A stretch of 64,000 nt of DNA from Achromobacter sp. Root83 (GCF_001428845.1 NZ_LMIU01000001.1:62984-126983); one strand, 5' to 3'; positions 7,174 to 32,450 are shown, counted from the first letter of the stretch. The notes: a model not told the origin generated them from the sequence alone. Numbers and translations: made by a program.

Positions 7174-7800
7174 ATGCCTGAATCGCTAACCGGACTGGAC
7201 CGCCTGCGCCGTTTTATCGCCACCGCGACACGGTTGGCGTCGCCGCAGGCGCTGGACCAGACGCCCGCGCTGGAAGCCGCCTTCGCGGACCTGATCAGCC
7301 ACGATGACTGGCTTCCCGAAGCCTGTACCGCGCCGCATCCGCAGTATTACCAGCAGTACCTGCTGCATTGCGACCCGCTGGAACGGTTTTCGCTGGTGAG
7401 CTTTGTATGGGGGGCCGGCCAGTTCACGCCTGTTCACGACCACGAAGTCTGGGGATATGTGGGCATGCTGCGCGGCGCCGAGGTCAATCAGCGATACACC
7501 CGGGACGCGGGCGGCGCGCTGGCGCTCGCGGGCGAGGCCACGACCCTGCGGCCCGGAGACATAGAGCGGCTGTCGCCGGTTGAAGGCGACATCCACCGCG
7601 TGTCCAATGCCTATCCCGACCGCGTCTCCATCAGCGTGCATCTCTATGGCGGCAATATCGGCGCGGTTTCGCGCCATGTCTACGACCCCGCCACCGGGCA
7701 GGCCAAGCCGTTCGTGTCGGGGTATTCGTCGGGCAGCCTGCCCAATCTGTGGGATCGGTCCGAAGCCGTGCGGGCCACGATTTCCGGCCTGAAGGCCTAG
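7174..7800 (+). CDS. Cysteine dioxygenase-family thiol dioxygenase (possibly 3-mercaptopropionate dioxygenase)
   Basis: A 208-residue cupin that oxidises a small thiol to the sulfinate with iron and O2. The iron ligands are His88 and His90 (PVHDHEVWG) and His141 (GDIHRVSN). Ser154-His156-Tyr158 (SVHLY) matches the outer-sphere Ser-His-Tyr triad of the family. The segment YYQQYLLHCDPLERFS has Gln where mammalian cysteine dioxygenase has its substrate Arg, which points to the Gln-type (3-mercaptopropionate) group; this is tentative. The start at ATG 7174 has CTGGAG 8 bp upstream. It is a single gene followed by iclR. Confidence 0.85.
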   Translation: MPESLTGLDRLRRFIATATRLASPQALDQTPALEAAFADLISHDDWLPEACTAPHPQYYQQYLLHCDPLERFSLVSFVWGAGQFTPVHDHEVWGYVGMLRGAEVNQRYTRDAGGALALAGEATTLRPGDIERLSPVEGDIHRVSNAYPDRVSISVHLYGGNIGAVSRHVYDPATGQAKPFVSGYSSGSLPNLWDRSEAVRATISGLKA

Positions 7801-7904
7801 GGTCCGTCAATACCAGAGGAATCTCTGTTGCTGCGCTGAGTGGCCCGCCTTGCGCCGTGCACGCAAAGCGCTGTTCCGGCGCGGCGTCCCGTGCTATGTT
7901 CTTG

Positions 7905-7919
7905 TCCTAAATATTAGGA
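7905..7919. promoter_or_regulatory. Operator-like inverted repeat before the IclR gene
   Basis: TCCTAAATATTAGGA: arms TCCTAA and TTAGGA are perfectly complementary around ATA. It ends 10 bp before the IclR start codon. The same 15-mer with one change recurs at 11311. Autoregulation is inferred. Confidence 0.7.
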
Positions 7920-7929
7920 AAATTCACGT

Positions 7930-8694
7930 ATGGACAAGACGCTGCTCAAAGGCCTGATGGTGTTGGAGGCGGTGACGGATGTGGACAATCCGCCGCGCAC
8001 GATCGACGCCCTGGCCGCGCGCGTGGGGCTGACCCGCAGCAACACGCATCGCACGCTGCAGACACTGATACATGCCGGCTACGTGATCAAGGACGACGAC
8101 GGCGGCGGATATCGCGGCGCCGTGCGTCTCTTCGAACTGGCGGCCCGGCAGCTTGCGCAACTCGACGTCCGCAAGCTGGCCGCGCCCTTCATGCGCACGC
8201 TGGCTGACCAGACCGGCGAAACCGTGCATCTGTCCGTGCTGGACGGCTTCGACGTGGTGTATGTGGACAAGATCGACAGCCCGCAGCCCATCCGCGCCTA
8301 TTCCATGGTCGGAGGGCGCGCGCCCGCGTACGCCGTGGCCACGGGCAAGGCTCTGCTGGCCTACCAGGCGGAAGGCTATGTCGAGCGCTATGCGGAGCAG
8401 ATGGTTCGCCACACGCCTTCCACCATCGTGTCCATGCCGCTGCTGAAGGACGAGCTGCGCAAGATCGCGCGCGCCGGCTATGCGGTCAATCGCGGCGAGT
8501 GGCGCGAGGGCGTGGGCGGACTGGCCGTGACCGTGTTCAACAGCCTGGACCAGCCCGTGGCGGCGGTGGGCATTTCCGGTCCGCTGGACCGGCTGAGCGC
8601 CGCTAGGATGAAGCAGCTGGCGCCGGACGTGGCGGCCTGTGCGCAGTCCATTTCGCAAGGGATGGGGTATCGCCGGGGTTTCCTGGACCAATAG
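7930..8694 (+). CDS. IclR-family transcriptional regulator
   Basis: A 254-residue protein with an N-terminal winged helix (about 1-65; LAARVGLTRSNTHRTLQTL) and a C-terminal effector-binding domain with the family signature LSVLDGFDVVYVDKIDS. The C-terminus ends in a GISGPLDRLS-containing segment typical of IclR proteins. The 15-bp inverted repeat before it and the matching copy between the two divergent operons at 11221-11534 suggest that it controls the flavoprotein/Bug operon and probably the CaiB operon. Its last 92 bp overlap the 3' end of the convergent flavoprotein gene. Confidence 0.92.
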   Translation: MDKTLLKGLMVLEAVTDVDNPPRTIDALAARVGLTRSNTHRTLQTLIHAGYVIKDDDGGGYRGAVRLFELAARQLAQLDVRKLAAPFMRTLADQTGETVHLSVLDGFDVVYVDKIDSPQPIRAYSMVGGRAPAYAVATGKALLAYQAEGYVERYAEQMVRHTPSTIVSMPLLKDELRKIARAGYAVNRGEWREGVGGLAVTVFNSLDQPVAAVGISGPLDRLSAARMKQLAPDVAACAQSISQGMGYRRGFLDQ

Positions 8695-10252
8695 CGGGCC
8701 GGGCGGCCAGCGCGGCCGCGATGCGTACCGCCTGGCCGTTGGCCAGCCGCGCATTGACGTCCATGGAGGTCGTCCAGAAGTAGGTGCCGCCGGCCAGGCT
8801 GCCCAGCACCGATATACCCGGATGCGCGTCCCCGCGGGCGTCCTTCAGGCAGCCGGTGCCGTAGTCCAGCGCCAGTCCGCCGTGGGCGTCGGCCTGTGCG
8901 TGGCCTTCGAGCAGCAACGTGGCGATCAGCGGGTCCGCCGTGCGCTGCGCGTCCACCGAAAAACTGGTGGCGTTGACGAGGTAGCGGCTGACATGCACGG
9001 CCTCGCCATCCGCCGTGCGCAGACGCGTATGGAACGTGCCGGCCGCGCTGTCGTGGCGGCTGCCGATGAAGCCGGAGGCCACTCGCAACTGGCCTGTCTT
9101 GAACAAGGCCTGCAGCTTCAGGGCATTGCGCATCGGGAAGGTGGCGCGCCGCGCCATCCATAGCGATCGCCATTGCGACTGGAAGCGCTTGCGCTCGGCA
9201 TCCGGCATCAGATGCCAGATCTGGTCCACTGCCGAGTTGGTGGCCGCGGCCACGGCCTGCCAGGGCCGGGCCGCATGCGCCGAACGCCGTATTTCCTCGT
9301 CCAGCGCGGTCGGCGCATCGCCCTGCAGCCCCAGCAGGTCGCCGCCGTCCAGGGAACCTCCGAGCGCCAGCACCTCGTCGCGCAGCGCCTGCCAGATCAC
9401 GTCGATCGAGAGGGCGCCGCCGTGCCGGGCGGCAAGCAGCAAGGCGCCGTCGCGGCTCAATTGCAGCAGCGTGTCCGGCGGCCGGTTGTGAGGACTGCGC
9501 ACGGACGGCAGCCGGCCATTGCGCGATACGCACACGATGGAGCCTTGATGGCCGGCCTGCTGCAGGGCCGCCACGGCGTCCACCGCGCTCAGGCTGGTGC
9601 CCACGATGCAGACCGAGGCATCGGGAGCGATGCCCCCGGCAAGCGCTGCCACCGGATAAGGACTGTTGAAATAGCCCGGAGCTTCTTCCAGCGCGGGAAA
9701 TGCCTGCGACGGCAGATTGCCATTGCACAGCACGGCGTGGCAAGCCACGCTAGCCGCGCCGCTGGGGGACTCGATGTCCACCCGCCCATCGGGGCGGGGC
9801 GCCACGCGGCTGACGCGGCAGGGCACATGCGTAAACGTTATGCCCGCGCTTTGCGCGAGTGCGCGGCAGCGGACGTAGACCGCGCGCATGTAGGCGCCGA
9901 ACAGCGGGCGGGGCAGGAAGTCCGCGGGATCGATCGCGTCCACGCCGTAGGCGCCCAGCCACGCGGGGTCCTGTTCCCGCAGCCATTCCACGAAGTCCAG
10001 CCGCCGGTCGGCCCGCGCCGACATGTTGCCGGCCGGGATGTTGAGCAGGTTGCTGGGCAGGTCGTCCTGGTAGGCGCCGCCCGGTCCCGGCTCGGCTTGC
10101 GGCTCGAACAGATGGATCGTCAGCGGACGCCGCACCGGATCCGCGTCCAGCGCCAGCAGGAACTGATAAAGAAAGCTGACCGCGACCGAGCCGCCGCCCA
10201 CGATGGCCAGGTCCACCGCAACCGGCGGGGCGGGCAGCGGACGCCGAGGCAT
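8603..10252 (-). CDS. FAD/NAD(P)-binding protein (NAD_binding_9-like)
   Basis: A 549-residue flavoprotein-like protein. A nucleotide-binding GGGSVAVS sits at about 19-26 after a beta strand, followed by FEPQAEPGPGGAY. A second nucleotide-binding stretch, VCIVGTSLSAVDAVAAL, lies near the middle. This resembles the FAD/NAD(P)-binding proteins related to lysine N-hydroxylases and HcpA; the substrate is unknown. It is translationally coupled to the Bug gene upstream (TAATG, one shared base). Its 3' end overlaps the IclR gene antisense by 92 bp. It may oxidise or hydroxylate the compound that the Bug receptor binds; this is inferred from the pairing only. Confidence 0.78.
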   Translation of the reverse strand: MPRRPLPAPPVAVDLAIVGGGSVAVSFLYQFLLALDADPVRRPLTIHLFEPQAEPGPGGAYQDDLPSNLLNIPAGNMSARADRRLDFVEWLREQDPAWLGAYGVDAIDPADFLPRPLFGAYMRAVYVRCRALAQSAGITFTHVPCRVSRVAPRPDGRVDIESPSGAASVACHAVLCNGNLPSQAFPALEEAPGYFNSPYPVAALAGGIAPDASVCIVGTSLSAVDAVAALQQAGHQGSIVCVSRNGRLPSVRSPHNRPPDTLLQLSRDGALLLAARHGGALSIDVIWQALRDEVLALGGSLDGGDLLGLQGDAPTALDEEIRRSAHAARPWQAVAAATNSAVDQIWHLMPDAERKRFQSQWRSLWMARRATFPMRNALKLQALFKTGQLRVASGFIGSRHDSAAGTFHTRLRTADGEAVHVSRYLVNATSFSVDAQRTADPLIATLLLEGHAQADAHGGLALDYGTGCLKDARGDAHPGISVLGSLAGGTYFWTTSMDVNARLANGQAVRIAAALAARPAIGPGNPGDTPSLAKWTAHRPPRPAPAASS

Positions 10253-11220
10253 TATTTGGCCCCCGACAGGCGCACGACATCCGCCCAGCGTGCGACCTCC
10301 TGCTTGAGCACGCGGCCGGTGTCCGGGGGCGAGGTGGCCACCGCATCCGCGCCCAGCTTCAGGGCGGCCTGCTGCACGGACGGCATGGCGGCGGCCTTCT
10401 GCATGCCGGCCGACAGCTTGTCGACCACCGCAGGCGGCGTGCCGGCCGGCGCCAGCAAGGCGTAGGTAGTGGCGACCGCGTAGTCCTTGACGCCCTGTTC
10501 CATCAGCGTGGGCAGATCGGGCAGGGCCGTGGCGCGCGTTGCGGTTGTCACGCCCAGCAGCCGGATCTTGCCGCTGGCCACTTGCGGCAGCAGCGCGGGC
10601 AGCGTTTCGATGACCATGTCGATCTGCCCGCCCAGGAGGTCGGTGATGGCCGGACCGCTGCCGCGATACGGCACATGCATGAGCTTGATGCCGGTGGCAA
10701 CCTGGAAGAGTTCGCCCGCCATGTGCTGCGACGTGCCAGGACCCGCCGATCCGAAAGTAATGGAGCCAGGCTTGCTCTTGGCCAGCGCGATCAGTTCCTG
10801 CACGTTCCGGGCGGGGATCTTGCCGCTGTTCACGGCCACCGCCATCGGCATGCTGGTCGCCATGGATACGCCGACGAAGGCGGTGCCGAAGTCATAGCCC
10901 GGCTTGTCGGGCATGGCCGCGTGGATCGCATGGCTGCCCACCGCGCCCATCAAGAGCGTGTAGCCGTCGGCCGGCGACTTGGCGACGAACTCCGCCCCGA
11001 TCTCGCCGCCCGCGCCGGCCTTGTTCTCCACCACCACGCTCTGGCCCAGGAAGTCGCCCAGGTGCTGCGCATAGATGCGCGCGGCCGCGTCCGTGGCGCC
11101 GCCCGGCGGGAATGGCACCACCATGCGCACGGGTTTCGCGGGCCAGGCGTCGGCCGCGGCGGGGTTGGCCGTCAGCGCCAGCACCGCGCTGGCCAGGGCA
11201 ATGCGCCACAACTGTTTCAT
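10252..11220 (-). CDS. Bug-family tripartite tricarboxylate transporter receptor
   Basis: A 322-residue periplasmic solute-binding protein of the Bug/TctC family. The signal peptide ends near residue 23 (NPAAA before DAWPAKPVRM). Family motifs are VVPFPPGGATD, VENKAGAGG, ADGYTLLMG and HVPYRGSGPA. It should bind a carboxylated compound in the periplasm. There is no TctA/TctB membrane pair in the window. I start at ATG 11220, which has AAGGAG upstream, not at the longer frame to 11361. It is the first gene of a two-gene operon with the flavoprotein and divergent from the CaiB operon. Confidence 0.93.
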   Translation of the reverse strand: MKQLWRIALASAVLALTANPAAADAWPAKPVRMVVPFPPGGATDAAARIYAQHLGDFLGQSVVVENKAGAGGEIGAEFVAKSPADGYTLLMGAVGSHAIHAAMPDKPGYDFGTAFVGVSMATSMPMAVAVNSGKIPARNVQELIALAKSKPGSITFGSAGPGTSQHMAGELFQVATGIKLMHVPYRGSGPAITDLLGGQIDMVIETLPALLPQVASGKIRLLGVTTATRATALPDLPTLMEQGVKDYAVATTYALLAPAGTPPAVVDKLSAGMQKAAAMPSVQQAALKLGADAVATSPPDTGRVLKQEVARWADVVRLSGAK

Positions 11221-11310
11221 GCAAGTCTCCTTGGGGGTTGGACGGGCCGGCATGCGCGGGGCGCCCCGCGATCGCGGGGGCGAACCAATCGCTGCTGCCC
11301 TTTGTGTGAA

Positions 11311-11325
11311 TCCTAAATAATAGGA
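11311..11325. promoter_or_regulatory. Second IclR operator-like site
   Basis: TCCTAAATAATAGGA differs in one of 15 bases from the site in front of the IclR gene at 7905. It lies 91 bp upstream of the Bug start codon. This is the strongest evidence that the IclR protein acts on this divergent region. Confidence 0.7.
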
Positions 11326-11395
11326 CTCGTATTTCAATAAATGGTTTACGTAGAATTCCACACGGTGATATGCTGGTCAACAATTAAGCGCGGCA

Positions 11396-11413
11396 CCTAG
11401 GGATTGCACTAGG
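11396..11413. promoter_or_regulatory. CCTAG-N8-CTAGG inverted repeat
   Basis: Arms CCTAG (11396-11400) and CTAGG (11409-11413) are complementary, in the middle of the divergent region. It may be a second, weaker regulator site; it shares only CCTA and TAGG with the 15-mer. Confidence 0.4.
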
Positions 11414-11482
11414 ATTCACGCGGGATATCGGTGAGATAGGCCCGACGGCCCTGAATGATGCCACCCACCCGCGCCGCGGCTT

Positions 11483-11510
11483 TATAATATTTTTCGCATC
11501 CCAAATATTG
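11483..11510 (+). promoter_or_regulatory. -10 box and operator half-site before the CaiB operon
   Basis: A perfect TATAAT at 11483-11488 has no recognisable -35 box, which fits an activator-dependent promoter. TCCCAAATATTG at 11499-11510 repeats the left half of the IclR 15-mer (10 of 15 positions match overall) and lies about where transcription should start. Confidence 0.5.
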
Positions 11511-11534
11511 TTTTTTTATATCGAGAGGTCAGAC

Positions 11535-12704
11535 ATGACACCCAGTTCGGCGCTTGCCGGCATCACCGTGCTAGAGATCTGCAACGTCGCGGCGGGACCT
11601 TTTTGCGGCATGTTGCTGGCCGACATGGGCGCGGACGTGATCAAGGTGGAACACCCGGAAGGCGGCGACACGTTGCGTAGCTGGCCGCCCATTTCCGACG
11701 GCTACAGCGAGAACTTCGCTTCGCTCAACCGCAACAAGCGTTCGGTGACGCTGAACCTGAAAGACCCCGCGGATCTGGCGCTGGCGCGCGAGCTGGCATT
11801 GACCGCGGACGTGCTGATCGAAAACAACCGGCCGGGCGTGATGGACCGCCTGGGCCTGGGCCATGCGGAACTGCGCGAGGCCAATCCCAAACTGGTGTAT
11901 TGCTCGATATCGGCCTATGGCCAGTCCGGTCCGCGTTCGCAGGAAGGCGGCTTCGACCTGACCATCCAGGCCATGAGCGGCATCATGAGCGTCACGGGCG
12001 AGGCCGGCGGCGAACCCGTCAAATGCGGCGTGCCGGTGGCGGACTTTTCGGCGGGCCTGTATGGCGCCTTCGCCATTGCGTCCGCGCTGCGCGCGGCCCA
12101 GGCCACCGGGCAAGGCACGCACATCGACGTGCCGATGCTGGGCGCCACGCTGGGCATCGCCGCCTTGCAGACATCGGAATTCTTCGGCAGCGGCAAGGAC
12201 CCCGTCAAGCTGGGCTCCGCGCACCCGCGCAATGCGCCGTACCAGGCGTTCCGCTGCAAGGACGGCTACTTCGGCATGGCGGCGGGCAACCAGGCTTTGT
12301 GGAAGAGCGTATGCGCGACCGTGGGCCGCGAAGACCTGCTGGCCGACCAGCGCTTCACGGACACCAGCGCGCGTGCGCGCAACCAGGCGGCGCTGCGCGA
12401 TATCCTGGAAGCGATCTTCGCCGAGGCCGATGCGCAGGCCTGGCTTCAGCGGTTTCGCGCGGCCGGCGTGCCGTGCGCGCCGATCAACACCTATTCCGAG
12501 GTGCTGGCCGATCCGCAGGTGGAACACATGGGCTGGGTGCAACAGGTGGAGCTGCCCAACGGCGTACAGACCCGCACCTTCGGCCTGCCGGTGCGCTTCG
12601 ACGGGGAAACCACGGCGCTGCGCCGCCGTCCTCCCGCGCTGGGCGAGCACAACGACGAAGTGCTGGGCGCGCTGCGCGCCGCCAGCAAGGAAGCGGCGGC
12701 ATGA
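11535..12704 (+). CDS. CaiB/BaiF family (type III) CoA transferase
   Basis: A 389-residue type III CoA transferase. Asp170 (in CGVPVADFSAG) is the expected catalytic aspartate that forms the aspartyl-CoA anhydride. The N-terminal EICNVAAGPFCGMLLADMGADV and RNKRSVTLNLKDP are family signatures. It should move CoA from an acyl-CoA donor to a carboxylic acid. I start at ATG 11535 after GAGAGGT, not at the ATT-rich upstream frame. It is the first of five co-directional genes; its stop overlaps the next start (ATGA). The substrate is unknown. Confidence 0.92.
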   Translation: MTPSSALAGITVLEICNVAAGPFCGMLLADMGADVIKVEHPEGGDTLRSWPPISDGYSENFASLNRNKRSVTLNLKDPADLALARELALTADVLIENNRPGVMDRLGLGHAELREANPKLVYCSISAYGQSGPRSQEGGFDLTIQAMSGIMSVTGEAGGEPVKCGVPVADFSAGLYGAFAIASALRAAQATGQGTHIDVPMLGATLGIAALQTSEFFGSGKDPVKLGSAHPRNAPYQAFRCKDGYFGMAAGNQALWKSVCATVGREDLLADQRFTDTSARARNQAALRDILEAIFAEADAQAWLQRFRAAGVPCAPINTYSEVLADPQVEHMGWVQQVELPNGVQTRTFGLPVRFDGETTALRRRPPALGEHNDEVLGALRAASKEAAA

Positions 12705-13420
12705 GCGTCCTGCGTATCGACAAGCAGGGCGCGCGGCACGTGCTGACCCTGGCCCGCCCCGAGAAGATGAATGCCTTGTCGGCCGACCTGGTCGAAGCGC
12801 TGATCCTGGCGCTGGACGAAGCCGAGGCGCAAGGCGCCAAGGTGATTGTGCTGAAAGGCGAGGGCAGGAACTTCAGCGCCGGCTTTGACTTCGGGGACTG
12901 GCAAGCACACAGCGAAGGCGATCTGCTTCTGCGCTTTGTCCGCATCGAGACGCTGCTGCAGCGGCTGGCCGGGTCGCCCTGCCTGACGCTCGCGCTGGCG
13001 CATGGCCGCAACTTCGGCGCGGGGGTGGATGTGTTCGGCGCCTGCAAGTGGCGCGTCTGCGCGCCGGATGCCTCGTTCCGCATGCCGGGCCTGAAGTTCG
13101 GCCTGGTGCTGGGCACGCGGCGCTTTGCCGCGCTGGTGGGCGCCGAGCGCGCGCGCACGATTCTGGAGCAGGCCGCGACGTTCGGCGCCGAAGACGCCTT
13201 GCGCGACGGATTCGCCAGCCGCCTTGCCGCGCCGGAAGAATGGCCGGAGATCGAGCAGCAGGCGCTGGATACGGCATCCGCCCTGACGGACGCCAGCCGC
13301 GCGCAGCTTTATGCGGCCTTGTCCCAGGAAGCGCCGGATGCGGATCTTGCGCGCCTGGTGCGCTCGGCGGCGCAGCCGGGCCTGAAAGACCGCGTGGCGG
13401 CATATCTGCAAGCGCGCTAG
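12701..13420 (+). CDS. Crotonase-fold protein with altered catalytic glutamates
   Basis: A 239-residue enoyl-CoA hydratase/isomerase-superfamily protein. The CoA oxyanion motif NFSAGFDFG (58-65) and the AHGRNFGAGVD strand are present. By comparison with mitochondrial crotonase, the two catalytic glutamates fall at Asp110 (GAGVD for GGGCE) and Gly130 (FRMPG for F-x-x-PE), so ordinary hydratase chemistry is unlikely. Isomerase, hydrolase, decarboxylase or ring-opening chemistry is possible. It overlaps the CaiB gene by 4 bp and precedes the CoA-transferase-like pair by 29 bp. Confidence 0.82.
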   Translation: MSVLRIDKQGARHVLTLARPEKMNALSADLVEALILALDEAEAQGAKVIVLKGEGRNFSAGFDFGDWQAHSEGDLLLRFVRIETLLQRLAGSPCLTLALAHGRNFGAGVDVFGACKWRVCAPDASFRMPGLKFGLVLGTRRFAALVGAERARTILEQAATFGAEDALRDGFASRLAAPEEWPEIEQQALDTASALTDASRAQLYAALSQEAPDADLARLVRSAAQPGLKDRVAAYLQAR

Positions 13421-13449
13421 CCGCAACAGACCAAGCAGGGAGGAAGACT

Positions 13450-14283
13450 ATGGCTTCGGGATTCAACCAAAAGAACAAGCAATGCTCGCTGTCGGAACTG
13501 GCGGCGCTGGTGCCGAATGGCGCCTCGATCGCGCTGGGCGGCAGCTTTCTGCATCGCGGACCCTTCGCCTTCGTGCGCGAACTGATCCGCCAGGAAAAGC
13601 GCGACCTTGAACTGATCAAGCAATCGCCCGGCTACGACGTGGACATCCTGTGCCGCGCGGGCGTGCTGCGCCGCGTGCGCGCGGGCATTGTCGCGATGGA
13701 AGGCAACTTCGGCCTGGCGCCCTGGTACCGGCGCGCGGTCGAGCGCCACGAGATCGAACTCGAGGAGCACGCTTGCGCCACGCTGACGGCGGGACTGCGG
13801 GCGGCGGCCTTCGGCGTGCCGTTCCAGCCTTGCGGCGGCCTGCATGGCAGCGGCCTGCCCGAGCTCAACGGATGGAAGTGCCTGGACGACCCCTACGGCA
13901 GCGGCCAGAAGACCTGGGTGGTGCCCGCCATCCGGCCCGACTTCACCGTGATCCAGGCGTCAGAAGTGGATGCACAGGGCAATGTGCGCGTGCATGGCAC
14001 GGCGCATTGGGACCGCATCATGTCGCGCGCGGCGGGCAGCGTGCTGGTGGTGGCCGAAAAACAGGTGGACAGCGCCGTATTCGAAGCGCAGCCGGAATCC
14101 ACGCTGGTGCCGTACTTCATGGTGCAGGCCTACGCGGTCGTGCCGCGCGGCGCGTGGCCCGGGTCATGCTGGCCGGACTACGCCATCGACTATCCGGCGG
14201 TAGAGGCCTACATGGACAAGAACAGCGATCTGCGTGCGCACATGGCTGCGGCGCCCGAAGCGGGGGAGGGCAATCATGGCTGA
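13450..14283 (+). CDS. CoA-transferase-like subunit A (GctA/IpdA type)
   Basis: A 277-residue class I CoA-transferase-like protein. The Gly-rich strand SIALGGSFLHRGPFAFVREL and the AGLRAAAFGVPF segment are typical of glutaconate CoA-transferase subunit A and its IpdA relatives. GGGAGGA before ATG 13450 supports the start. It overlaps subunit B by 8 bp, so the two are coupled and presumably form one enzyme. Whether it transfers CoA or hydrolyses a ring, as IpdAB does, cannot be told from the sequence. Confidence 0.85.
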   Translation: MASGFNQKNKQCSLSELAALVPNGASIALGGSFLHRGPFAFVRELIRQEKRDLELIKQSPGYDVDILCRAGVLRRVRAGIVAMEGNFGLAPWYRRAVERHEIELEEHACATLTAGLRAAAFGVPFQPCGGLHGSGLPELNGWKCLDDPYGSGQKTWVVPAIRPDFTVIQASEVDAQGNVRVHGTAHWDRIMSRAAGSVLVVAEKQVDSAVFEAQPESTLVPYFMVQAYAVVPRGAWPGSCWPDYAIDYPAVEAYMDKNSDLRAHMAAAPEAGEGNHG

Positions 14284-15010
14284 GCAATGGTCTGGCTTTT
14301 CATACATCGTGACCAACCTGGCGCGCTTCATCCGCCCGGATGAAATCACCTTCAGCGGCGTGAACTCCACCATGCCGATGTTGGCCTGCCTGCTGGCCAA
14401 GCGCGCCTACGACTGGGACTTCGTCTACATCAATGTCGCCGGGGGCGTGAACCCGCGGCCATCGCATATCCCGATCTCCAGCTCCGATCCCGTGCTGGCC
14501 GAGCACACGGCGTCGATCTTCTCCAACGAAGACTTCTACGACCTGTGCACGCGCGGGCGCATGGACCTGACCTTCCTGGGCGCCGCGCAGATCGACGGCG
14601 CGGGCTGCGCCAACAACTCCTGCATAGGCGACTGGCACCAGCCCAAGGTCCGCCTGCCGGGCGGCGGGGGCGGCGCGGTGATGCTGCCCACGGCCCGGCG
14701 GGCATGCACCTGGCGCACCGAACATTCAAGCCGCACCTTTGTGCCCAAGCTGGATTTCATGACGTCCTGGGGCGGATTCCATGGCGTGGTGACGCCGATT
14801 GCCGTGTTCGTCAAACGGGACGGGCGCCTGGCGCTGCAATCGTGGCACCCGGAATCCAGCCTGTCGGAAGTGCGTGAACGCACGGGCTTCGAGTTCGACG
14901 CCACCGGCGCTGCACCGACGGCGCCGCCGACCGCCGACGAAGCCCGCGCCTTGGGCGAGCTGGACGCCGACGGCCAGTTCGAACGCGACGCCGCCGTGGC
15001 GCTGCGCTAG
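14276..15010 (+). CDS. CoA-transferase-like subunit B (GctB/IpdB type)
   Basis: A 244-residue partner of the preceding gene. It has the subunit B patterns INVAGGVNPRPSHIPIS, FLGAAQIDGAGCANNSCIG and LPGGGGGA. The residue that is the catalytic Glu in true CoA transferases (Glu before AG/SG in the first motif) appears to be Val54 here by hand alignment. IpdAB-type ring hydrolases also lack that Glu. This suggests C-C bond hydrolysis of a cyclic acyl-CoA rather than CoA transfer, but this remains inference. Confidence 0.85.
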   Translation: MAEQWSGFSYIVTNLARFIRPDEITFSGVNSTMPMLACLLAKRAYDWDFVYINVAGGVNPRPSHIPISSSDPVLAEHTASIFSNEDFYDLCTRGRMDLTFLGAAQIDGAGCANNSCIGDWHQPKVRLPGGGGGAVMLPTARRACTWRTEHSSRTFVPKLDFMTSWGGFHGVVTPIAVFVKRDGRLALQSWHPESSLSEVRERTGFEFDATGAAPTAPPTADEARALGELDADGQFERDAAVALR

Positions 15011-15060
15011 GCCGCGTTCACACCGCAAGAAGCCTTGCACGGGCTCAGGGGGAGATAGTC

Positions 15061-16554
15061 ATGACGATTGCCGATGCCACGGTCGTGGCGGCGTTTGCGC
15101 GCTTGTGGAGCCAGCCCGGCTGGGCGGCGCGTCCCGCCATCGTGACCGCCGAGGAAACGCTGACCTATGCGGATCTGCGCCGCCGCGTGGGGCAGGCGGC
15201 GGGCGGGCTGCGTGCGGCCGGCGTCGCGCCGGGCCACTATGTGGCGGTCGCGATGGAACGCTCGCTGGCGCAGGTCGTGGCCATGCTGGGCGCGATGGCG
15301 GCGGGGGCTTGCCCGTGTCCGCTCGAACCGCGCCTGTCGGTCGCGGAAACGGCGCGCCGCGTGGCCGCGGTGGGCCTGACCTGGATGCTGCACGATGAGG
15401 CCAATGCGGCCAGCGCCGAAGCCTGCGGACTGGCGCCGGCGCGTCTGCTGCGGGCCGCCGATGTCGCCCAGGGCCCCGAAGACTGGTCGGGCTCGGGCGT
15501 CGCGCCGCGGGGGCCGGGCCTGCTGCTGTTCACCTCGGGCAGCACGGGCAATCCGAAGGGTGTGCTGCTGAGTCACCAGGGTCTGGCGAACAACGCGCGC
15601 GGCGTGCTGGCGCATACGGGCCTGACGCCCGCCGACCGCCTGCTGCATGTCATGCCGCTGCATCACACCAATGCGCTGAACAACCAGATATTCGCGCCGC
15701 TGCTGGCCGGCGCCAGCGTGGCGCTGGCCGGCCGGTTCCGGGCGGACGACATGCCCGGGCTGTTGACCGCGTTTCGCCCCACCATCATCACGGGCGTGCC
15801 CACCATGTACGCCCGCATGCTGGAACTGCCATTCGATCCGGCCGCCCTGGCCGGCCTGCGCTTCGCGCGCTGCGGTTCCGCGCCCATCACCGAGGCGCTG
15901 CATCGGCGCATAGAAGCGTTTCTGGGCTGCCCGCTGGTGGTGTCCTACGGCCTGTCGGAGGCCACCTGCACCTCCACCATGAACCCGCCCGCCGCGCGGC
16001 GCGTGGGGTCGGTGGGCACGGTGCTGGCCGGTCAGGAAGTGAGCTTGCGCCTGCCGGACGGCAGCCGGGCCGCGGCGGGCGGCGAGGGCGAGATCTGCAT
16101 CGCAGGCGACAGCCTGATGCTGGGCTATCTGGGCGTGGATGACGCAGACGATGGCGCGCCGGCGCTATTGCGCACGGGCGACCTGGGGCGATTCGACGAG
16201 CAAGGGTATCTGACCATCACCGGCCGCATCAAGGACGTCATCATCCGGGGCGGCGAGAACATCTCGCCGGCGTTGATCGAAGGCGTCGTGACCGGACTGC
16301 CCGGCGTGGCCGCCTGCTGCGTGGTGGGCGCGCCGGACGAGGACCTGGGCGAAGCGCCCGTGATCTTCGTGCAGCGCAACGGCGACGCCGCGCCCGACGC
16401 GCCGCGCATCCAGGCCGAAGTGCTGGCGCGCCTGGGCCGGATCTACGTGCCGCGCGAGGTCTTGTGGATCGAGCGCCTGCCCGAGAACGCGGTGGGCAAG
16501 GTCGACCGCAAGGCCCTGGCGCGGCAGGCCGCGGCCAAGGACGCCGTTCATTGA
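15061..16554 (+). CDS. AMP-forming acyl-CoA synthetase
   Basis: A 497-residue ANL-superfamily ligase that activates a carboxylic acid to its CoA ester with ATP. Motifs: P-loop LFTSGSTGNPKGVLLSH (about 159-175), SYGLSEATCTS, RTGDLGRFDEQGYLTITGR with the hinge, and the acylation lysine in NAVGKVDRK near the C-terminus. It is the last gene of the five-gene operon, 50 bp after subunit B, and probably performs the entry step of this pathway. The substrate is unknown. Confidence 0.92.
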   Translation: MTIADATVVAAFARLWSQPGWAARPAIVTAEETLTYADLRRRVGQAAGGLRAAGVAPGHYVAVAMERSLAQVVAMLGAMAAGACPCPLEPRLSVAETARRVAAVGLTWMLHDEANAASAEACGLAPARLLRAADVAQGPEDWSGSGVAPRGPGLLLFTSGSTGNPKGVLLSHQGLANNARGVLAHTGLTPADRLLHVMPLHHTNALNNQIFAPLLAGASVALAGRFRADDMPGLLTAFRPTIITGVPTMYARMLELPFDPAALAGLRFARCGSAPITEALHRRIEAFLGCPLVVSYGLSEATCTSTMNPPAARRVGSVGTVLAGQEVSLRLPDGSRAAAGGEGEICIAGDSLMLGYLGVDDADDGAPALLRTGDLGRFDEQGYLTITGRIKDVIIRGGENISPALIEGVVTGLPGVAACCVVGAPDEDLGEAPVIFVQRNGDAAPDAPRIQAEVLARLGRIYVPREVLWIERLPENAVGKVDRKALARQAAAKDAVH

Positions 16555-16558: not shown

Positions 16559-16597
16559 ACGGCGGCGGGCGCCCCTTGCCGCCCGGCGCCGTTATTC
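16559..16597 (+). terminator. Possible terminator after the CoA operon
   Basis: A GC-rich hairpin: CGGGCG (16566-16571) pairs with CGCCCG (16580-16585) and GGCG pairs with CGCC further out, with one mismatch between. It is followed by a weak TTATT tail and lies between convergent genes. Confidence 0.4.
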
Positions 16598-17563
16598 CAC
16601 CTTGCCTATTTTGTTCACCGCGGCTTCCAGCGATGCGGAATCTTTTTTCCAGTATTCGTCGAACGCCGGCGCGTCCAGGTATTGCACGGGGCTGCCGGTG
16701 CCGGCGATGCGGGTCTGCACGCCGGGGTCGTGAGCGATCTCCTTGACCGCCTGGCGCAGCCGGTCGATGACGGGTTGCGGCGTGCCGGCCAGGGCAAATA
16801 CGCCGGACCACTGCACGAAGCCGATGTCATAACCCTGCGATTTCAGCGATGGCACTTGCGGCAGGCTGTCGAGCTTGCCATCGCCCCAATGCGCCAGCGC
16901 CTTCACGCGTCCGCCCTGGATAAGCTGCATGACGCTGGACGGGCCGGTGGCGACCGCATCGACCTGCCCGCCCACCAGCGCCTGCACCGCGGGGCCCGCG
17001 CCCGTGAACGGCACGTGCATCATCTTGACCCCGGCCGCGCTCTGCAGCATCTCCATCGGCACGTGCATCGTGCCGTAGATGCCGGAACTGCCATAGCTCA
17101 GCTTGCCGCCCTGTTTCCGGGCCGCGTCGATGAACTCCCGCACCGTGTTGTACGGCGCGTCCGCCCGCACCACCAGCACGGTGGGATCCGCCGTGATCCG
17201 CGCGATGGGCACGAACTGTTCCAGTTGATAGGCAGGCTTGCGTTCCAGCAGGCGATCCGCCGCGGGCAGGATCGAAATGGACGACAGGCTCAGCAGCAGC
17301 GTGTAGCCATCCGGCTTGGCGCGCCCCGCCTGTCCTATGCCGATGGCGCCGCCCGCGCCGGCCTTGTTTTCAAGGACGATGGGCTGGCCCAGCTTGTCGC
17401 CCAGGGCCTGGGCCAGCGGCCGTGCGATGGTATCGGCGACGCCGCCGGGCGGGAACGGTACCACCATGGTCACGGCACGCTCGGGATAGCCGGCGGCCAT
17501 CGCGTTTGCCGCTCCGAACAATAGCAAGGCAGCCGCGGCCACCCCTTTGCAGCGCAGGTTCAT
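16592..17563 (-). CDS. Bug-family tripartite tricarboxylate transporter receptor
   Basis: A 323-residue periplasmic receptor. The signal peptide MNLRCKGVAAAALLLFGAAN is followed by a cleavage site near AMAAG. Family motifs are VVPFPPGGVADT, LENKAGAGGAIG, PDGYTLLLS and HVPFTGAGPAVQAL. AAAGGAG lies just before the start. It follows the FAH-family gene by 61 bp on the same strand, so the pair is likely an import-plus-hydrolysis unit controlled by the GntR regulator at 18686. It ends next to the convergent CoA operon. Confidence 0.93.
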   Translation of the reverse strand: MNLRCKGVAAAALLLFGAANAMAAGYPERAVTMVVPFPPGGVADTIARPLAQALGDKLGQPIVLENKAGAGGAIGIGQAGRAKPDGYTLLLSLSSISILPAADRLLERKPAYQLEQFVPIARITADPTVLVVRADAPYNTVREFIDAARKQGGKLSYGSSGIYGTMHVPMEMLQSAAGVKMMHVPFTGAGPAVQALVGGQVDAVATGPSSVMQLIQGGRVKALAHWGDGKLDSLPQVPSLKSQGYDIGFVQWSGVFALAGTPQPVIDRLRQAVKEIAHDPGVQTRIAGTGSPVQYLDAPAFDEYWKKDSASLEAAVNKIGKVE

Positions 17564-17624
17564 GTCTCACTCCTTTATGTATTTATGGACTGCGTCGCGC
17601 CGTGTTCACGCCAGGCGCGTTGGC

Positions 17625-18494
17625 TCAGACAAAGCGGTTTTCGATACTCCCGATGCCGTCGATCTCGATCCGCACCGTGTCCCCGTGCTTCAGGAATCGC
17701 GGCGGGTTGAGCCCCTGGCCCACGCCGGCGGGCGTGCCGGTGGCGATGACGTCACCCGGATACAGGGTGATGCCGCGCGAGCAGGTTTCGATCAGTGTGG
17801 GAATGTCGAAGATCAGGTCTTCGGTGTTGCCGTCCTGGCGCAGCTCGCCGTTCACCCAGCAGCGCACCCGGGTGTGCTGGCCGTCCAGTTCGTCGGCCGT
17901 GACCAGCCAGGGGCCCATGGGGCAGAAGGTGTCGAAGGATTTGCCCAGATCCCATTGCTGATGGCGCATCTGCACGTCGCGCGCCGTGACATCGTTGACC
18001 ACCGTATAGCCCATCACATGGCTCATGGCTTCGGCGCGGGAGATATCGCGGCCGCCCTTGCCGATCACGACGGCTAGCTCGGCCTCGTAGTCGATCTTGT
18101 CGGAGATGCCCTGGGGCAGCCGCACGTCCGCCCACGGCCCCACCACCGTCTGCGGCACCTTGGTGAATACGATGGGCCAGGATTCGGGGTTGGCGTCGTT
18201 GTCCTTGAACACGGAGTCGCGCAGTTCCTTGGCGTGGGCGTGATAGTTGCGCCCCACGCAGAACAGGTTGCGCCGCTGGGCGGGCAAGGGCGCTTCATGC
18301 TCGACTTGATCCCAGCGATACGACGGACCGGTCCTGGCCGGCAAGTCGCGGCCCTCGGCCAGCCATTCCACGGCCGTCAGCGCGCCCGCCGCCGCGAGTT
18401 CCCGGGGGAAGTCCAGGGCGGTCACCGCGCTGCCGTCCTCGGAGACCAGGCCCACCCGGCGCTCACCATCGATTCGAAATACCGCGATCTTCAT
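17625..18494 (-). CDS. Fumarylacetoacetate hydrolase-family protein
   Basis: A 289-residue FAH-fold enzyme. The core has FCVGRNYHAHAKE, the metal-binding IDYEAELAVVIGK, GYTVVNDVTARDVQ and the C-terminal PGDVIATGTPAGVG. These enzymes hydrolyse or decarboxylate acylpyruvate-like intermediates, with Mg or Mn bound by acidic residues. The substrate is unknown. AGGGAG before ATG 18494 supports the start. It is the first gene of an operon with the Bug receptor and divergent from a GntR gene, with operator-like repeats between. Confidence 0.92.
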   Translation of the reverse strand: MKIAVFRIDGERRVGLVSEDGSAVTALDFPRELAAAGALTAVEWLAEGRDLPARTGPSYRWDQVEHEAPLPAQRRNLFCVGRNYHAHAKELRDSVFKDNDANPESWPIVFTKVPQTVVGPWADVRLPQGISDKIDYEAELAVVIGKGGRDISRAEAMSHVMGYTVVNDVTARDVQMRHQQWDLGKSFDTFCPMGPWLVTADELDGQHTRVRCWVNGELRQDGNTEDLIFDIPTLIETCSRGITLYPGDVIATGTPAGVGQGLNPPRFLKHGDTVRIEIDGIGSIENRFV

Positions 18495-18530
18495 GCTTGC
18501 TCCCTGGGCGGCTGGCCGCCCTGTAATGGC

Positions 18531-18548
18531 ATACCAATAAATACCAAT
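18531..18548. promoter_or_regulatory. Double ATACCAAT site before the FAH operon
   Basis: ATACCAAT occurs at 18531-18538 and 18541-18548, exactly 10 bp apart, one helical turn. The complementary half-site occurs once near the GntR promoter at 18646. Binding by the GntR protein is inferred. Confidence 0.6.
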
Positions 18549-18645
18549 TGAGCATCAATTCAGGCCCAATTTCCGCAGAGCATAAACCAAATAAAACCTT
18601 CGAAGCCATGGGAATAATCCCGAGCTCAGGTTTTTATTGGACTGA

Positions 18646-18656
18646 TTTGGTATTAT
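18646..18656 (+). promoter_or_regulatory. Inverted half-site over the GntR gene -10 box
   Basis: TTTGGTAT (18646-18653) is the inverse of the ATACCAA half-site and overlaps a -10-like TATTAT (18651-18656), 30 bp before the GntR start codon. This is consistent with autorepression. Confidence 0.55.
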
Positions 18657-18685
18657 CTTGGCGCCAGGCCATTCAGGGAGCCAAC

Positions 18686-19354
18686 ATGGACAAAGCCTCC
18701 GCCATGCGCGCGGTCATCATCGAAAACCTGCAGTCCGGCATCTGGCCCGCCGGCCACCGGCTGCCGACGGAACGCGCCCTGAGCGAACAATTCGGCATCA
18801 GCCGTTCAACGGTGCGCCGCACTTTGTCGGCACTGAAGGACGAGGGCCTGATCTCGCAGCGGGTGGGCAGCGGCACGTACGCCAATCCGCCGTCCACGCT
18901 GACGCAGACCGAAGCGCTGCTGCGCGGCGAGGTGTTGGCCACCAGCCCGGCCGAGCTGATGGCCGCGCGCCTGGTTCTGGAGCCCGCCATCGCGGCGCTG
19001 GTGGTGCAGCATGGTTCACCGGCCGACTTCACCGCCATGCAGCATGCCTGCGACCAGGCGGAGGCCGCGGCCAGTTTTGAAGCCTTCGAAGTCTGGGACG
19101 CCAAGCTGCACGAACTGATGGCCACGGCCACCCACAATCTCTTCATTCAAAAGGTGTTTGCCTTGATGACGGCGGCGCGTTCACAAGCCACGTGGGGCGC
19201 CCTCAAGCGAAAAAGCCTGACGCCGGAACGGCGCCAGGCGTACCAGGCCGAGCATCGGGAGATCGTCGAGGCGCTGCATGACCGTGACGCCGAACGCGCC
19301 ATGGCGGCCGTTCGGCGGCATCTGTTGCACGTGAGGGATAACTTGCTGGGTTAG
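18686..19354 (+). CDS. GntR-family regulator, FadR subfamily (FCD domain)
   Basis: A 222-residue regulator with an N-terminal winged helix (PTERALSEQFGISRSTVRRTLSAL, then GLISQRVGSGTYAN) and an all-helical FCD effector domain ending in AMAAVRRHLLHVRDN. I start at ATG 18686 because CAGGGAG precedes it; the frame continues to 18548 but that part covers the promoter. It is divergent from the FAH/Bug operon, whose control region carries matching half-sites. Its stop overlaps the convergent amidase stop by 4 bp. Confidence 0.9.
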   Translation: MDKASAMRAVIIENLQSGIWPAGHRLPTERALSEQFGISRSTVRRTLSALKDEGLISQRVGSGTYANPPSTLTQTEALLRGEVLATSPAELMAARLVLEPAIAALVVQHGSPADFTAMQHACDQAEAAASFEAFEVWDAKLHELMATATHNLFIQKVFALMTAARSQATWGALKRKSLTPERRQAYQAEHREIVEALHDRDAERAMAAVRRHLLHVRDNLLG

Positions 19355-20652
19355 GCGTGCGGGCGCTTGCCGGCGCCGCGCGCATCCAGCAAGGGGTGAG
19401 CCAAGTCTGCCATGGCCAGCAGCGCGCCATCCCCGCCCTGTCTGCTCACCAGTTGCACGCCCAGCGGCAGGCCGTTGCCGGACCAGGCCGTGGGCAATTG
19501 CACGGCGGGCCATCCCAGCACCGACCAGACCCGGTTGAAGGTCGATTCGCCCGTGCTGGCCAGCCCGAACGGGGCCTCGCCGGCCGCGCCGGGGGTCAGG
19601 ATGAAGTCGAAGTCCGCAAGCGCCTGTTCGAACACGCGGCGTTCGCGTGCCGAGCGCTCCAGGGCCTCGCGATACTGCGCGGCATCAATCGCCAGACCGT
19701 CAGCGATCGCGCGGTGCAGCAGGGTGCTCAGGTCCCTTGGCCGCGCCCGGCCCAATGGCAGCAGCGTTCGCGCCAGTTCGTACAGCATGATTATTCGATG
19801 GCACTGCGCCAGCACGAGCAGGCTGGGCCCCATGGCGGCCGGCACGACCTCGTGGCCGGCATGGCGCAGTGCCGCCGCCGCGGCGTGCAGCACGCGCTCG
19901 GCTTGCGGTTCGAGCGGGCCCAGTTGTTCGGACGCCAGCAGCATGACGCGCCACGTGGCGGGCGGCGGTGCGGCCTGTCCCGGCAACAACACCCGTCCTA
20001 CGGCGATGGCGTCCGCCACATTGCGCGTGAACCAGCCCAGGCAGTCCAGGCTGGCGGCCACGGCGGCGACGCCGTCCAGCGGCACCGCGCCCACCGAGGT
20101 CTTGACGCCGACGACGCCGCAATAGGCCGCCGGGCGTATCACTGAGCCGCCCGTCTGCGTGCCCAGCGCCAGCGGAACCACGCCGGCGGCGACTGCGGCC
20201 GCGGATCCGCTGGACGATCCGCCAGGGGTACGGTCCGCGGCGTGGGGATTGCGAGTGGGACCGGGGTAAGAGAAGGCATGCTCGGCGGTCACCGTCTTGC
20301 CCACCGGCACTGCGCCCGCGGCACGCAGCAATGCCACGCATGCGGCGTCGCGCGCCGCTGGGTCCGGCCCGACGCCGGGCAGTCCCAGTCCGGTGGGCAT
20401 GCCGGCCACATCGATCACGTCCTTGACGCCCAGCGGCACACCCAGCAGGGGCAGGTCCGGGCCCGACGGCAGCCGGCGGTAGGCCGCGTCGACCTGCGCC
20501 GGTTCGAACCAGCTCCATGCCCGCAGCGCGGGCTCGCATCGGGCATGGGCCGAGATAAGGCCGCTGGCGATCCCGGCGGGCTTCAGGGTGTTCTGGCGCA
20601 GGGCGCGAGCGATGTCGTGCGCGCAGGCTTGAGATGGGTGTAGGGCTTGCAT
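19351..20652 (-). CDS. Amidase, amidase-signature family
   Basis: A 433-residue amide hydrolase. The Ser-cisSer-Lys triad of the family is visible: Lys in LGVKDVID, the cis-Ser in GGSSSGSAAAV, and the nucleophilic Ser region GTQTGGSVIRPAAYCGVVG. Its substrate may be a small amide or carbamoyl compound. The start at ATG 20652 has only a weak GGGG upstream. It is a single gene between the GntR gene (convergent) and the PrpF operon (divergent, 137 bp away), so its pathway is not shown by context. Confidence 0.9.
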   Translation of the reverse strand: MQALHPSQACAHDIARALRQNTLKPAGIASGLISAHARCEPALRAWSWFEPAQVDAAYRRLPSGPDLPLLGVPLGVKDVIDVAGMPTGLGLPGVGPDPAARDAACVALLRAAGAVPVGKTVTAEHAFSYPGPTRNPHAADRTPGGSSSGSAAAVAAGVVPLALGTQTGGSVIRPAAYCGVVGVKTSVGAVPLDGVAAVAASLDCLGWFTRNVADAIAVGRVLLPGQAAPPPATWRVMLLASEQLGPLEPQAERVLHAAAAALRHAGHEVVPAAMGPSLLVLAQCHRIIMLYELARTLLPLGRARPRDLSTLLHRAIADGLAIDAAQYREALERSARERRVFEQALADFDFILTPGAAGEAPFGLASTGESTFNRVWSVLGWPAVQLPTAWSGNGLPLGVQLVSRQGGDGALLAMADLAHPLLDARGAGKRPHA

Positions 20653-20789
20653 GGGCCCCAGTATGGGTCAGGCGCCGCGCCGGCGAGCGGTTCCGGGGGC
20701 ATGAAATTTCTTCGCGCCCCTCGCGCCAAATGCTCGTTTGCCTGCGGCACATCCTGGGGGCCAGACTTGCCAGCGCCAAGGAGGACACC

Positions 20790-21917
20790 ATGCGAGAATT
20801 TTCCGATCAACTGGGCCTGCGCTGCGTGCTGATGCGCGGCGGCACGTCCAAGGGGCCATTTTTCGTGGCCGAAGACCTGCCCGCGCCCGGCCCGCGCCGC
20901 GACGCCGCGCTGCTGCGCCTGATGGGCGCCGTGGAACCGCGCCGCATCGACGGCATCGGCGGCATCGACTCGCTCACCAACAAGGTGGCGATCATCGCCC
21001 GCAGCAGTATGCCGGATGTGGACGTGGACTATCTGTTCGCCCAGATCTGCGTACACAAGAACACCGTCGACTATTCGGTGAACTGCGGCAACATGCTGGC
21101 GGCGGTGGGACCCTTCGCCATCGATGAAGGGCTGGTGCCGGCGACAGGGGAATCCACCGAGGTGGCGATCTTCAACGTCAACACCCGCAAGCGCATCGTC
21201 GCGACGGTCCGCACCCGCGGCGGCCTCACGGTCTACGACGGCCAGGCCGCCATCGACGGCGTGGCCGGAAGCGCCGCGCCGGTGTGGCTGAAATTCCACG
21301 AGGTCGCGGGCGCCAAGACGGGCAAGCTGCTGCCCACGGGCCGGGCGGTCGACATGATCGAGGGCGTGCCGGTAAGCTGCGTCGACGCGGCAGTGCCGAT
21401 GGCCATCGTCGAGGCCTCGGCTTTCGGCATCACGGGCCATGAGACGGCCGAAGAGATAAACGCCCGCCCCGAGCTGCTTGCCCACGTCGAGCGGGTGCGT
21501 TGCGCCGCCGGCCTGGCGATGGGGCTGGGCGATGTGTCCAGGCTTGAAATGCCCAAGCTTGTGACGGTGGCGCCGCCGCTCAGAGGCGGAACCCTGAGCG
21601 CCAGGTATTTCATGCCGTACACCTGCCATACCTCGTTCGCGGTGACAGGAGCGGTATGCCTGGCCGCCGCCGCGCGGATTCCCGGTTCCGTGGCGGCGCG
21701 GGCCGGGGGGGAAGAAGGGTCGGGCAGCGTGGACATCGAGCACCCGGCGGGTACGCTGCAGGTGGGCATAGAGGCTGTCGATGGCGCGGCCGGCATCGAG
21801 ATCAGGTCGGCCAGCCTGCTGCGAACCGCAAGGCGCCTGTTCGCGGGAACCGTTTATTTACCCCAAGAGACCTTGGCGGCGTTCCAACCGGAAGCAACAG
21901 AGAAAACCACCCTATGA
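20790..21917 (+). CDS. PrpF-family isomerase (4-oxalomesaconate tautomerase-like)
   Basis: A 375-residue PrpF/GalD-type protein. The N-terminal RCVLMRGGTSKGPFF and SVNCGNMLAAVGPF, each with a key residue (Lys; Cys), and the C-terminal IEHPAGTLQVGIE are family signatures. Members move a C=C bond in aconitate-like or oxalomesaconate-like acids. GGAGGACACC before ATG 20790 supports the start. It overlaps the Bug gene by 4 bp, suggesting that the receptor takes up a matching di- or tricarboxylate. GalD activity is possible; no other gallate genes are near. Confidence 0.87.
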   Translation: MREFSDQLGLRCVLMRGGTSKGPFFVAEDLPAPGPRRDAALLRLMGAVEPRRIDGIGGIDSLTNKVAIIARSSMPDVDVDYLFAQICVHKNTVDYSVNCGNMLAAVGPFAIDEGLVPATGESTEVAIFNVNTRKRIVATVRTRGGLTVYDGQAAIDGVAGSAAPVWLKFHEVAGAKTGKLLPTGRAVDMIEGVPVSCVDAAVPMAIVEASAFGITGHETAEEINARPELLAHVERVRCAAGLAMGLGDVSRLEMPKLVTVAPPLRGGTLSARYFMPYTCHTSFAVTGAVCLAAAARIPGSVAARAGGEEGSGSVDIEHPAGTLQVGIEAVDGAAGIEIRSASLLRTARRLFAGTVYLPQETLAAFQPEATEKTTL

Positions 21918-23985: not shown

Positions 23986-24876
23986 TCAGGACTGGCCGCG
24001 CAGCCTTGCCAGTTCGGCCGAAAGCTCGGCCACCAGGGCCTGGGCGCGCGCCAGCGGATCCTGCCCGCCGGGCAGGGCATCCGCCTGGACGGCGGCATCC
24101 TGCAGCCGGGGCTGCACGCTTTCGTGGCCCATGCTGACATCCACGTCGAACACGAGCTGTTCCGCGCGGTGCCAGGTCGTGAACCATTCCAGCGGCTTTC
24201 CGTGCTGGTCCATGCCCTGTCCTTGCAGCATCAGCAGGGGAGTGCCGGCCTGGGTGTCCAGCAGCTCGGCCAATGCCGCGTCGGCGGCCACCGCCCGGAT
24301 CTGATTGCGGCCCGCGCCGGGGCGCAGGCCGAACTGGCGTGTCAGCACGCCGTGCAGGGACGCGTCGACCAGGTGCTCGGCACGCAGGCCCGGCACGGCG
24401 TCGGCGGGCAGCCAGGTGCGCACATAGGCCAGCGGCGCCTCGGCCACGTGGCGCAGGCGTTCCAGCATCAGCAGGCGGGACGTGCCGAAGAACCCGGCCA
24501 CGTCGGCGGGCGGTTCGGCCCGGCCCAGCGCCAGGACGCGGGTCTGCAGGGATACGCCCGATTGCGCGAATTGCTCGTAGAGGCCCGTGGACCGCTGCAC
24601 CAGGCGCCGGTGCTCCTGGGGCGCCGCCACCGTGGCAGGGCGTCCCGTTTCGCGCTGAATCATTCCTTCGGCGGCCAGCGCCGCCAGCGCCTGGCGCACC
24701 ACGCTGCGGGCCACGCCGAAGCGTTCGCAGAGCGCGGCCTCGCTGGGCAGCACGGCGCCGGCCGCGAGCTTGTTCGTGCGGATGTATCCGCGCAGCATGG
24801 CCGCCACCTGGGCGTGCAGCGGGATATCGCCGGAGCGGTCAAGAACGGGCAATGCGTCGTGCGTGGCGGGCGCCAT
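23986..24876 (-). CDS. GntR-family regulator, HutC subfamily (UTRA domain)
   Basis: A 296-residue regulator with an N-terminal winged helix (PSEAALCERFGVARSVVRQAL, then GMIQRETGRPATVA) and a C-terminal UTRA ligand domain (about 90-240) typical of sugar and acid-sugar sensors. GGAGG before ATG 24876 fixes the start. It is the last gene of the operon, 5 bp after pdxA2, so it is probably autoregulated. The two TGTACGTACA palindromes in front of the operon resemble HutC-type operators and are the likely target. Confidence 0.9.
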   Translation of the reverse strand: MAPATHDALPVLDRSGDIPLHAQVAAMLRGYIRTNKLAAGAVLPSEAALCERFGVARSVVRQALAALAAEGMIQRETGRPATVAAPQEHRRLVQRSTGLYEQFAQSGVSLQTRVLALGRAEPPADVAGFFGTSRLLMLERLRHVAEAPLAYVRTWLPADAVPGLRAEHLVDASLHGVLTRQFGLRPGAGRNQIRAVAADAALAELLDTQAGTPLLMLQGQGMDQHGKPLEWFTTWHRAEQLVFDVDVSMGHESVQPRLQDAAVQADALPGGQDPLARAQALVAELSAELARLRGQS

Positions 24877-24881
24877 GGAAA

Positions 24882-32436: not shown

Positions 32437-32450
32437 GTTGTGCGTTCCGC

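Follow-up and report, generated by a model that had tools for sequence, protein, structure and literature searches.

An operon of altered CoA enzymes in Achromobacter sp. Root83, linked to a thiol dioxygenase, as a candidate part of an organosulfur-acid catabolic island

The closest described counterparts of the locus analyzed here come from two bacteria that degrade organosulfur acids. In Advenella mimigardefordensis, the 3,3'-dithiodipropionate (DTDP) cluster encodes, in order, a class III CoA-transferase, the desulfinase Acd, the thiol dioxygenase Mdo, AhpD, and two TctC receptors (PMC5373536), and the 3,3'-thiodipropionate (TDP) cluster of Variovorax paradoxus TBEA6 contains mdo, act, acdA, and several crotonases (PMC6370202). 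We examined a 64,000-nucleotide stretch of Achromobacter sp. Root83 (NZ_LMIU01000001.1:62984-126983; hereafter the window), which carries at positions 11535-16554 an operon encoding a CaiB-type CoA-transferase, a crotonase-fold enzyme, a pair of proteins resembling the GctA and GctB subunits of glutaconate CoA-transferase (GCT), and an AMP-forming acyl-CoA ligase. An initial annotation had delimited this five-gene CoA operon, and its coordinates and Pfam families are borne out; its statement that no described pathway has exactly this set also holds, as neither such a pathway nor a crotonase desulfinase was found in the literature available as open-access full texts. The annotation further proposed that the operon activates and opens a cyclic or branched acid. 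Our preferred reading, held at close to even confidence and built on sequence comparisons, is that the operon forms part of an organosulfur-acid catabolic island in which CaiB would activate a sulfinate made by an Mdo homologue and the crotonase would break its C-S bond.

Mdo proteins are marked by a three-histidine iron site, a Ser-His-Tyr motif, a carboxylate-binding arginine, and a glutamine where cysteine dioxygenase has arginine. All of these are present in the product of a gene located ~4 kb upstream of the operon (His88, His90, and His141; Ser154-His156-Tyr158; Arg167; Gln61) and in each of its 56 aligned relatives; it is the only match in the genome at E≤1e-30. The initial annotation correctly listed the Bug receptor and the flavoprotein as neighbors of the operon but left this gene unnamed. 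Genes were called de novo in 120 related loci and then clustered; the loci nearest to that of the window are from Achromobacter species. CaiB and the crotonase occur together in almost all of these loci and Mdo in 53, along with an IclR gene in 90, the flavoprotein in 28, and frequently a Bug receptor. Mdo accompanies CaiB and the crotonase in at least eight gene arrangements, being found between the two (CaiB-Mdo-ECH), immediately after the pair (CaiB-ECH-Mdo), after the ligase, upstream, or in divergent orientation. The crotonase is present in 72, Mdo in 78, and both in 65 of 151 genomes from the same family (Fisher odds ratio 47, p 3e-21, uncorrected for phylogeny), and the distance to Mdo is no more than 12 kb for 45 of the 76 crotonase genes. 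An order-wide sample that omits this family, and that is largely separate from the first (approximately 290 genomes in total), gave 31 genomes with the crotonase, 47 with Mdo, and 27 with both (odds ratio 81, likewise uncorrected); here 16 of 31 crotonase genes are within 12 kb of Mdo, with eight other families represented. We regard the organosulfur link of the operon as strong. Variovorax genomes also have a second Mdo context (L241:18428-19899 and other loci), in which Mdo is followed by a rhodanese-like protein and lies near an ABC importer, with neither CaiB nor the crotonase.

Other sulfur-metabolism genes lie at a few of the clusters. The sulfite dehydrogenase SorT is adjacent in Pseudorhodoferax L092 (603 bits, cut-off 570), and a 64% SorT homologue adjoins the cluster of A. 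aestuarii L064; SorT is also encoded in the Root83 genome, at a site away from the operon. A partial SorA as well as YeiH-type exporters are present in Methylobacterium loci L107 and L102, the acylating sulfoacetaldehyde dehydrogenase SauS lies beside the cluster in L108 (776 bits, cut-off 600), and TauE follows a GctAB-ligase set in L231. Neighbors such as Mdo, AhpD, and, at a few loci, a sulfite dehydrogenase, SauS, a sulfate exporter, or TauE point to organosulfur acids rather than cyclic acids as substrates.

Enoyl-CoA hydratases and other catalytic crotonases use two glutamates, Glu144 and Glu164 in the rat enzyme. Alignment to EchA6 and to 3ISA places Asp110 and Gly130 of the window protein at these two positions, confirming the substitutions reported in the initial annotation. 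The protein thus has the crotonase superfamily fold but lacks the glutamate pair that defines an enoyl-CoA hydratase. Asp63, Asp110, and Gly130 are invariant in 115/115 crotonase relatives, which excludes both a sequencing error and a decayed copy and speaks for an active site that is changed but still working. Non-functional paralogues were ruled out on the same grounds, as the altered residues of the operon's proteins are invariant in 82-115 relatives. The closest solved structure is 3ISA from Bordetella parapertussis (E=5e-83 over nearly the whole length), which belongs to the same subfamily and shares the GAGVD and MPGLKFGL motifs; no function has been assigned to this structure beyond its database name, 'putative enoyl-CoA hydratase/isomerase'. 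The biofilm gene echA of A. xylosoxidans (PMC6684605) was considered as the same gene and judged to be different, since two echA insertions separated by 942 bases would require a gene of more than 720 bases and its product is described as DspI-like.

The active site and the linkage to Mdo also bear on a reading in which the operon processes the carbon half of the substrate, free of sulfur and represented by acids of the acrylate or 3-hydroxypropionate type, by CoA transfer and hydration in the manner of AcuN-AcuK, while Mdo acts separately on the sulfur half. Pairs of CaiB and crotonase proteins of this kind are known, and the five-gene cluster is found without Mdo in several genomes. A hydration step is difficult to reconcile with the loss of both hydratase glutamates in all 115 relatives, and a separate role for Mdo with the very tight linkage of this crotonase to Mdo; we consider this reading improbable.

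The preferred reading assigns CaiB and the crotonase the parts played elsewhere by Act and AcdA. CaiB has the CoA_transf_3 domain and the catalytic aspartate of class III CoA-transferases (Asp170, 109/109) and is 36-39% identical to the family III (Act-like) transferases that adjoin acdA. The acdA and crotonase clusters share a set of accessory genes, namely Mdo, Bug, AhpD, an enolase-superfamily enzyme, a second crotonase, an ADP-forming ligase, and a GCT-like pair. The Root83 genome has no recognizable AcdA (NF042439; best score 283 bits, cut-off 600), and none of the crotonase loci contains an intact acdA. Because of these shared accessory genes and the absence of AcdA from the genome and of intact copies from the crotonase loci, the CaiB-crotonase pair appears to stand in for Act and AcdA. 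AcdA exceeded the cut-off in 6/151 family genomes and in 2/81 genomes of the genus Variovorax. The TBEA6 cluster, sought so that VPARA_05510, VPARA_05520, and VPARA_05530 could be compared with the window crotonase, was not found in the 81 Variovorax genomes sampled. A Caballeronia locus (L074:14690-15194) retains an acdA remnant, ~120 residues at 72%, with an intact five-gene cluster ~8 kb away, which looks like loss of the desulfinase at this locus. By eye, a molybdoenzyme resembling biotin/DMSO-sulfoxide reductases was also seen close to Mdo clusters of the AcdA kind as well as of the crotonase kind (L140, L190, L223, and L224).

In the proposed route, the Bug receptor would help to take up a sulfur-containing acid; TctC receptors are likewise part of the characterized DTDP cluster (PMC5373536). 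The ligase, the GCT-like pair, and perhaps the flavoprotein may then liberate a thiol resembling 3-mercaptopropionate, or the corresponding sulfinate, from a larger acid, which is the least certain step; the ligase and the pair would work on an additional CoA intermediate and probably provide this thiol or sulfinate. With its intact active site, Mdo would oxidize the thiol to the sulfinate, and CaiB, judged by homology and context, would place CoA on the sulfinate carboxylate as Act does for 3-sulfinopropionate. The C-S bond in this CoA ester would then be cleaved by the crotonase, probably through Asp110 as acid/base, to yield sulfite and a C3 acyl-CoA. The crotonase would thereby take the job that AcdA, a desulfinase of the acyl-CoA dehydrogenase type, performs in Advenella and Variovorax, as the pattern of genomic replacement suggests.

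Several observations weigh against this route. The Fisher tests ignore phylogeny, a limit to which the variety of gene arrangements and families is not subject. Many five-gene clusters, including most of those from Methylobacterium, reside in genomes without Mdo, so Mdo is not essential to the operon. The crotonase system is also retained in five of the six genomes with AcdA, implying that the substrates of the two may differ, and Mdo proteins encoded beside AcdA form their own clade. Sulfite genes are near only a few loci, TauE and YeiH are too few to count as proof by themselves, and all of these additional sulfur genes serve as support only. Finally, desulfination of a β-sulfinate is not classic enolate chemistry; a crotonase would be better matched to an α-sulfinate, a β-sulfonate, or a thioether.

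This chemical misfit led us to consider a thioether lyase, in which the ligase or CaiB would convert a thioether acid such as TDP to its CoA ester and the crotonase, acting upstream of Mdo, would β-eliminate 3-mercaptopropionate to leave a product of the acrylyl-CoA type; Mdo would oxidize the thiol, and another enzyme would remove the sulfur. β-Elimination is natural crotonase chemistry. In the TBEA6 mdo-act-acdA cluster, moreover, a crotonase-family gene affects growth, two enoyl-CoA hydratases are needed for growth on TDP, and one of them is stabilized by TDP-CoA (PMC6370202). Such a lyase would leave removal of the 3-sulfinopropionate unaccounted for in the many genomes that lack AcdA, and CaiB and the crotonase are paired just as Act and AcdA are. 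We judge it rather unlikely, though the likeliest of the rival readings.

A widespread crotonase filling the place of AcdA would matter beyond this genome. With AcdA in 6/151 family genomes against Mdo in 78/151, most of these genomes offer no explanation for what becomes of the sulfinate product. If the proposed route is correct, it would account for the recycling of organosulfur compounds by many soil and opportunistic bacteria, extend the crotonase superfamily by a reaction type, offer a route of relevance to precursors of polythioesters, and correct the generic labels 'enoyl-CoA hydratase' and 'CoA-transferase' in many genomes.

The GCT-like pair departs from each characterized enzyme of its fold. 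Position 54 of the B subunit, which is the catalytic Glu54 in glutaconate-type class I CoA-transferases, is valine in 82/82 relatives, as the initial annotation had observed for the window protein; its further comparison of this valine with IpdAB hydrolases was inexact. Cys109 of the A subunit, also conserved in 82/82, aligns with the residue that differs between IpdA structures 6co6 (MDEG) and 6coj (MDAG), which we take to be the catalytic Glu105 in the numbering of the IpdAB work. Three distant paralogous pairs from the same genome family that have Glu54 in the B subunit lack the A-subunit cysteine. Those without Glu54 carry it (L231-L233, L238, L240, and the acdA-adjacent pairs L222-L224); for L231, L238, L240, and L222-L224, where the alignment of the B subunit lacks this site or is poor there, the rows were partly read by eye. 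Pair L237 fits neither class. Alignment thus suggests that, in the small set of paralogues compared, Cys109 goes together with loss of Glu54. Because of Val54, Cys109, and the paralogue pattern, the window pair is, by its aligned residues, neither a Glu-type transferase nor a canonical IpdAB, and we refer to it as a Cys-type GCT.

The closest solved relatives of both subunits are AibA and AibB, the 3-methylglutaconyl-CoA decarboxylase (5MZW-5N03), which share the GCT fold without the catalytic glutamate. In the window pair, Val54 and Ser70 take the places of Cys56 and Glu72 of AibB, and Cys109 that of a glycine in the A subunit; an AibB C56V mutant stays active (PMC7756340). IpdAB, the COCHEA-CoA hydrolase, has the same fold and also lacks Glu54 in the B subunit, but Val54 of the window protein corresponds to Gly57 in IpdB of RHA1 (PMC5380842), Cys109 replaces Glu105, and no steroid partner genes were seen. 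These comparisons bear directly on the cyclic- or branched-acid route of the initial annotation, in which the pair would serve as an IpdAB-type hydrolase that opens a ring after activation of the acid. The relationship to IpdAB and AibAB and the missing Glu54 agree with that role, and a cysteine at the Glu105 site might permit hydrolysis. Since IpdA Glu105 is itself missing, ipdC, ipdF, echA20, and other ring-processing partner genes were not seen in the neighborhoods, and organosulfur genes occur there instead, we consider the route very improbable. A more far-reaching formulation, which we view as possible but doubtful, is that the operon represents a second, non-homologous means of bacterial C-S cleavage at the CoA level, in which a crotonase-fold desulfinase that uses an invariant aspartate instead of the hydratase glutamates has displaced AcdA, together with a Cys-type GCT subclass that relies for catalysis on Cys109 in the A subunit and no longer on Glu54 in the B subunit.

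The five operon genes are co-directional and tightly packed (Table 1). The CaiB and crotonase genes overlap by 4 bases and the GctA-like and GctB-like genes by 8; 29 bases separate the crotonase gene from the GctA-like gene, and 50 bases separate the GctB-like gene from that of the ligase. Scans for sigma-70 promoters and terminators found no plus-strand promoter and no terminator at the operon end. The ligase retains its motifs (FTSGSTG, YGLSE, TGD, and GRIKD) and the conserved Lys480. An AlphaFold2 model of the flavoprotein (pLDDT 85.7) most closely matches, among PDB folds, the aspartate N-hydroxylase FzmM (8cp2, TM 0.70), followed by ornithine N-hydroxylases; by this modeled fold, the flavoprotein might oxygenate sulfur or nitrogen.

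Table 1. Genes of the operon and of the adjoining upstream region, in window coordinates.
Feature	Position	Strand	Match
Mdo homologue, cupin thiol dioxygenase	7174-7800	+	PDB 3uss/4tlf E=4e-69
IclR-family regulator	7930-8694	+	NCBIfam IclR-family matches
Predicted class B flavoprotein monooxygenase (NAD_binding_9)	8603-10252	-	PF13454
Bug/TctC periplasmic receptor, adjoins flavoprotein gene	10252-11220	-	PF03401
CaiB, family III CoA-transferase	11535-12704	+	PF02515 (CoA_transf_3) E=1.8e-131
Crotonase-fold enzyme, Asp110/Gly130	12701-13420	+	PF00378 (ECH_1) E=2.7e-27
GctA-like, GCT-fold A subunit, Cys109	13450-14283	+	PF01144 (CoA_trans)
GctB-like, GCT-fold B subunit, Val54	14276-15010	+	PF01144 (CoA_trans)
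AMP-forming acyl-CoA ligase	15061-16554	+	PF00501 + PF13193

Immediately 3' of the operon, positions 16592-21917 encode a second Bug receptor, an FAH-family hydrolase, a GntR regulator, an amidase, and a PrpF-like protein. Of the Achromobacter loci, only eight have the first three of these genes (Bug, FAH, and GntR) downstream, so this region looks like a separate catabolic unit. Three further regions were identified by eye: a probably separate sugar-acid unit at 23986-28269 (GntR regulator, PdxA2-like protein, and an OtnK-like four-carbon acid kinase), a fatty-acid β-oxidation block at 30742-44973 (long-chain ligase, thiolases, FadB-like proteins, FadL-like porin, and acyl-CoA dehydrogenase), and a polysaccharide biosynthesis cluster at 49401-62645 (glycosyltransferases, GDP-mannose dehydratase, and fucose synthase-like genes).

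The system most like this locus as a whole remains the 3-sulfinopropionate/DTDP/TDP pathway of A. mimigardefordensis DPN7 and V. paradoxus TBEA6, which employs Act or SucCD, AcdA, and Mdo. The window departs from it in lacking AcdA and having the Asp110/Gly130 crotonase beside the transferase, in the additional Cys-type GCT pair and AMP-forming ligase, and in a CaiB whose identity to Act-like proteins is limited to the range given above. What the two have in common is an Mdo with an intact active site, a family III CoA-transferase, and a TctC/Bug receptor, which stand together in the window at 7174-12704 and are joined by AhpD in related loci.

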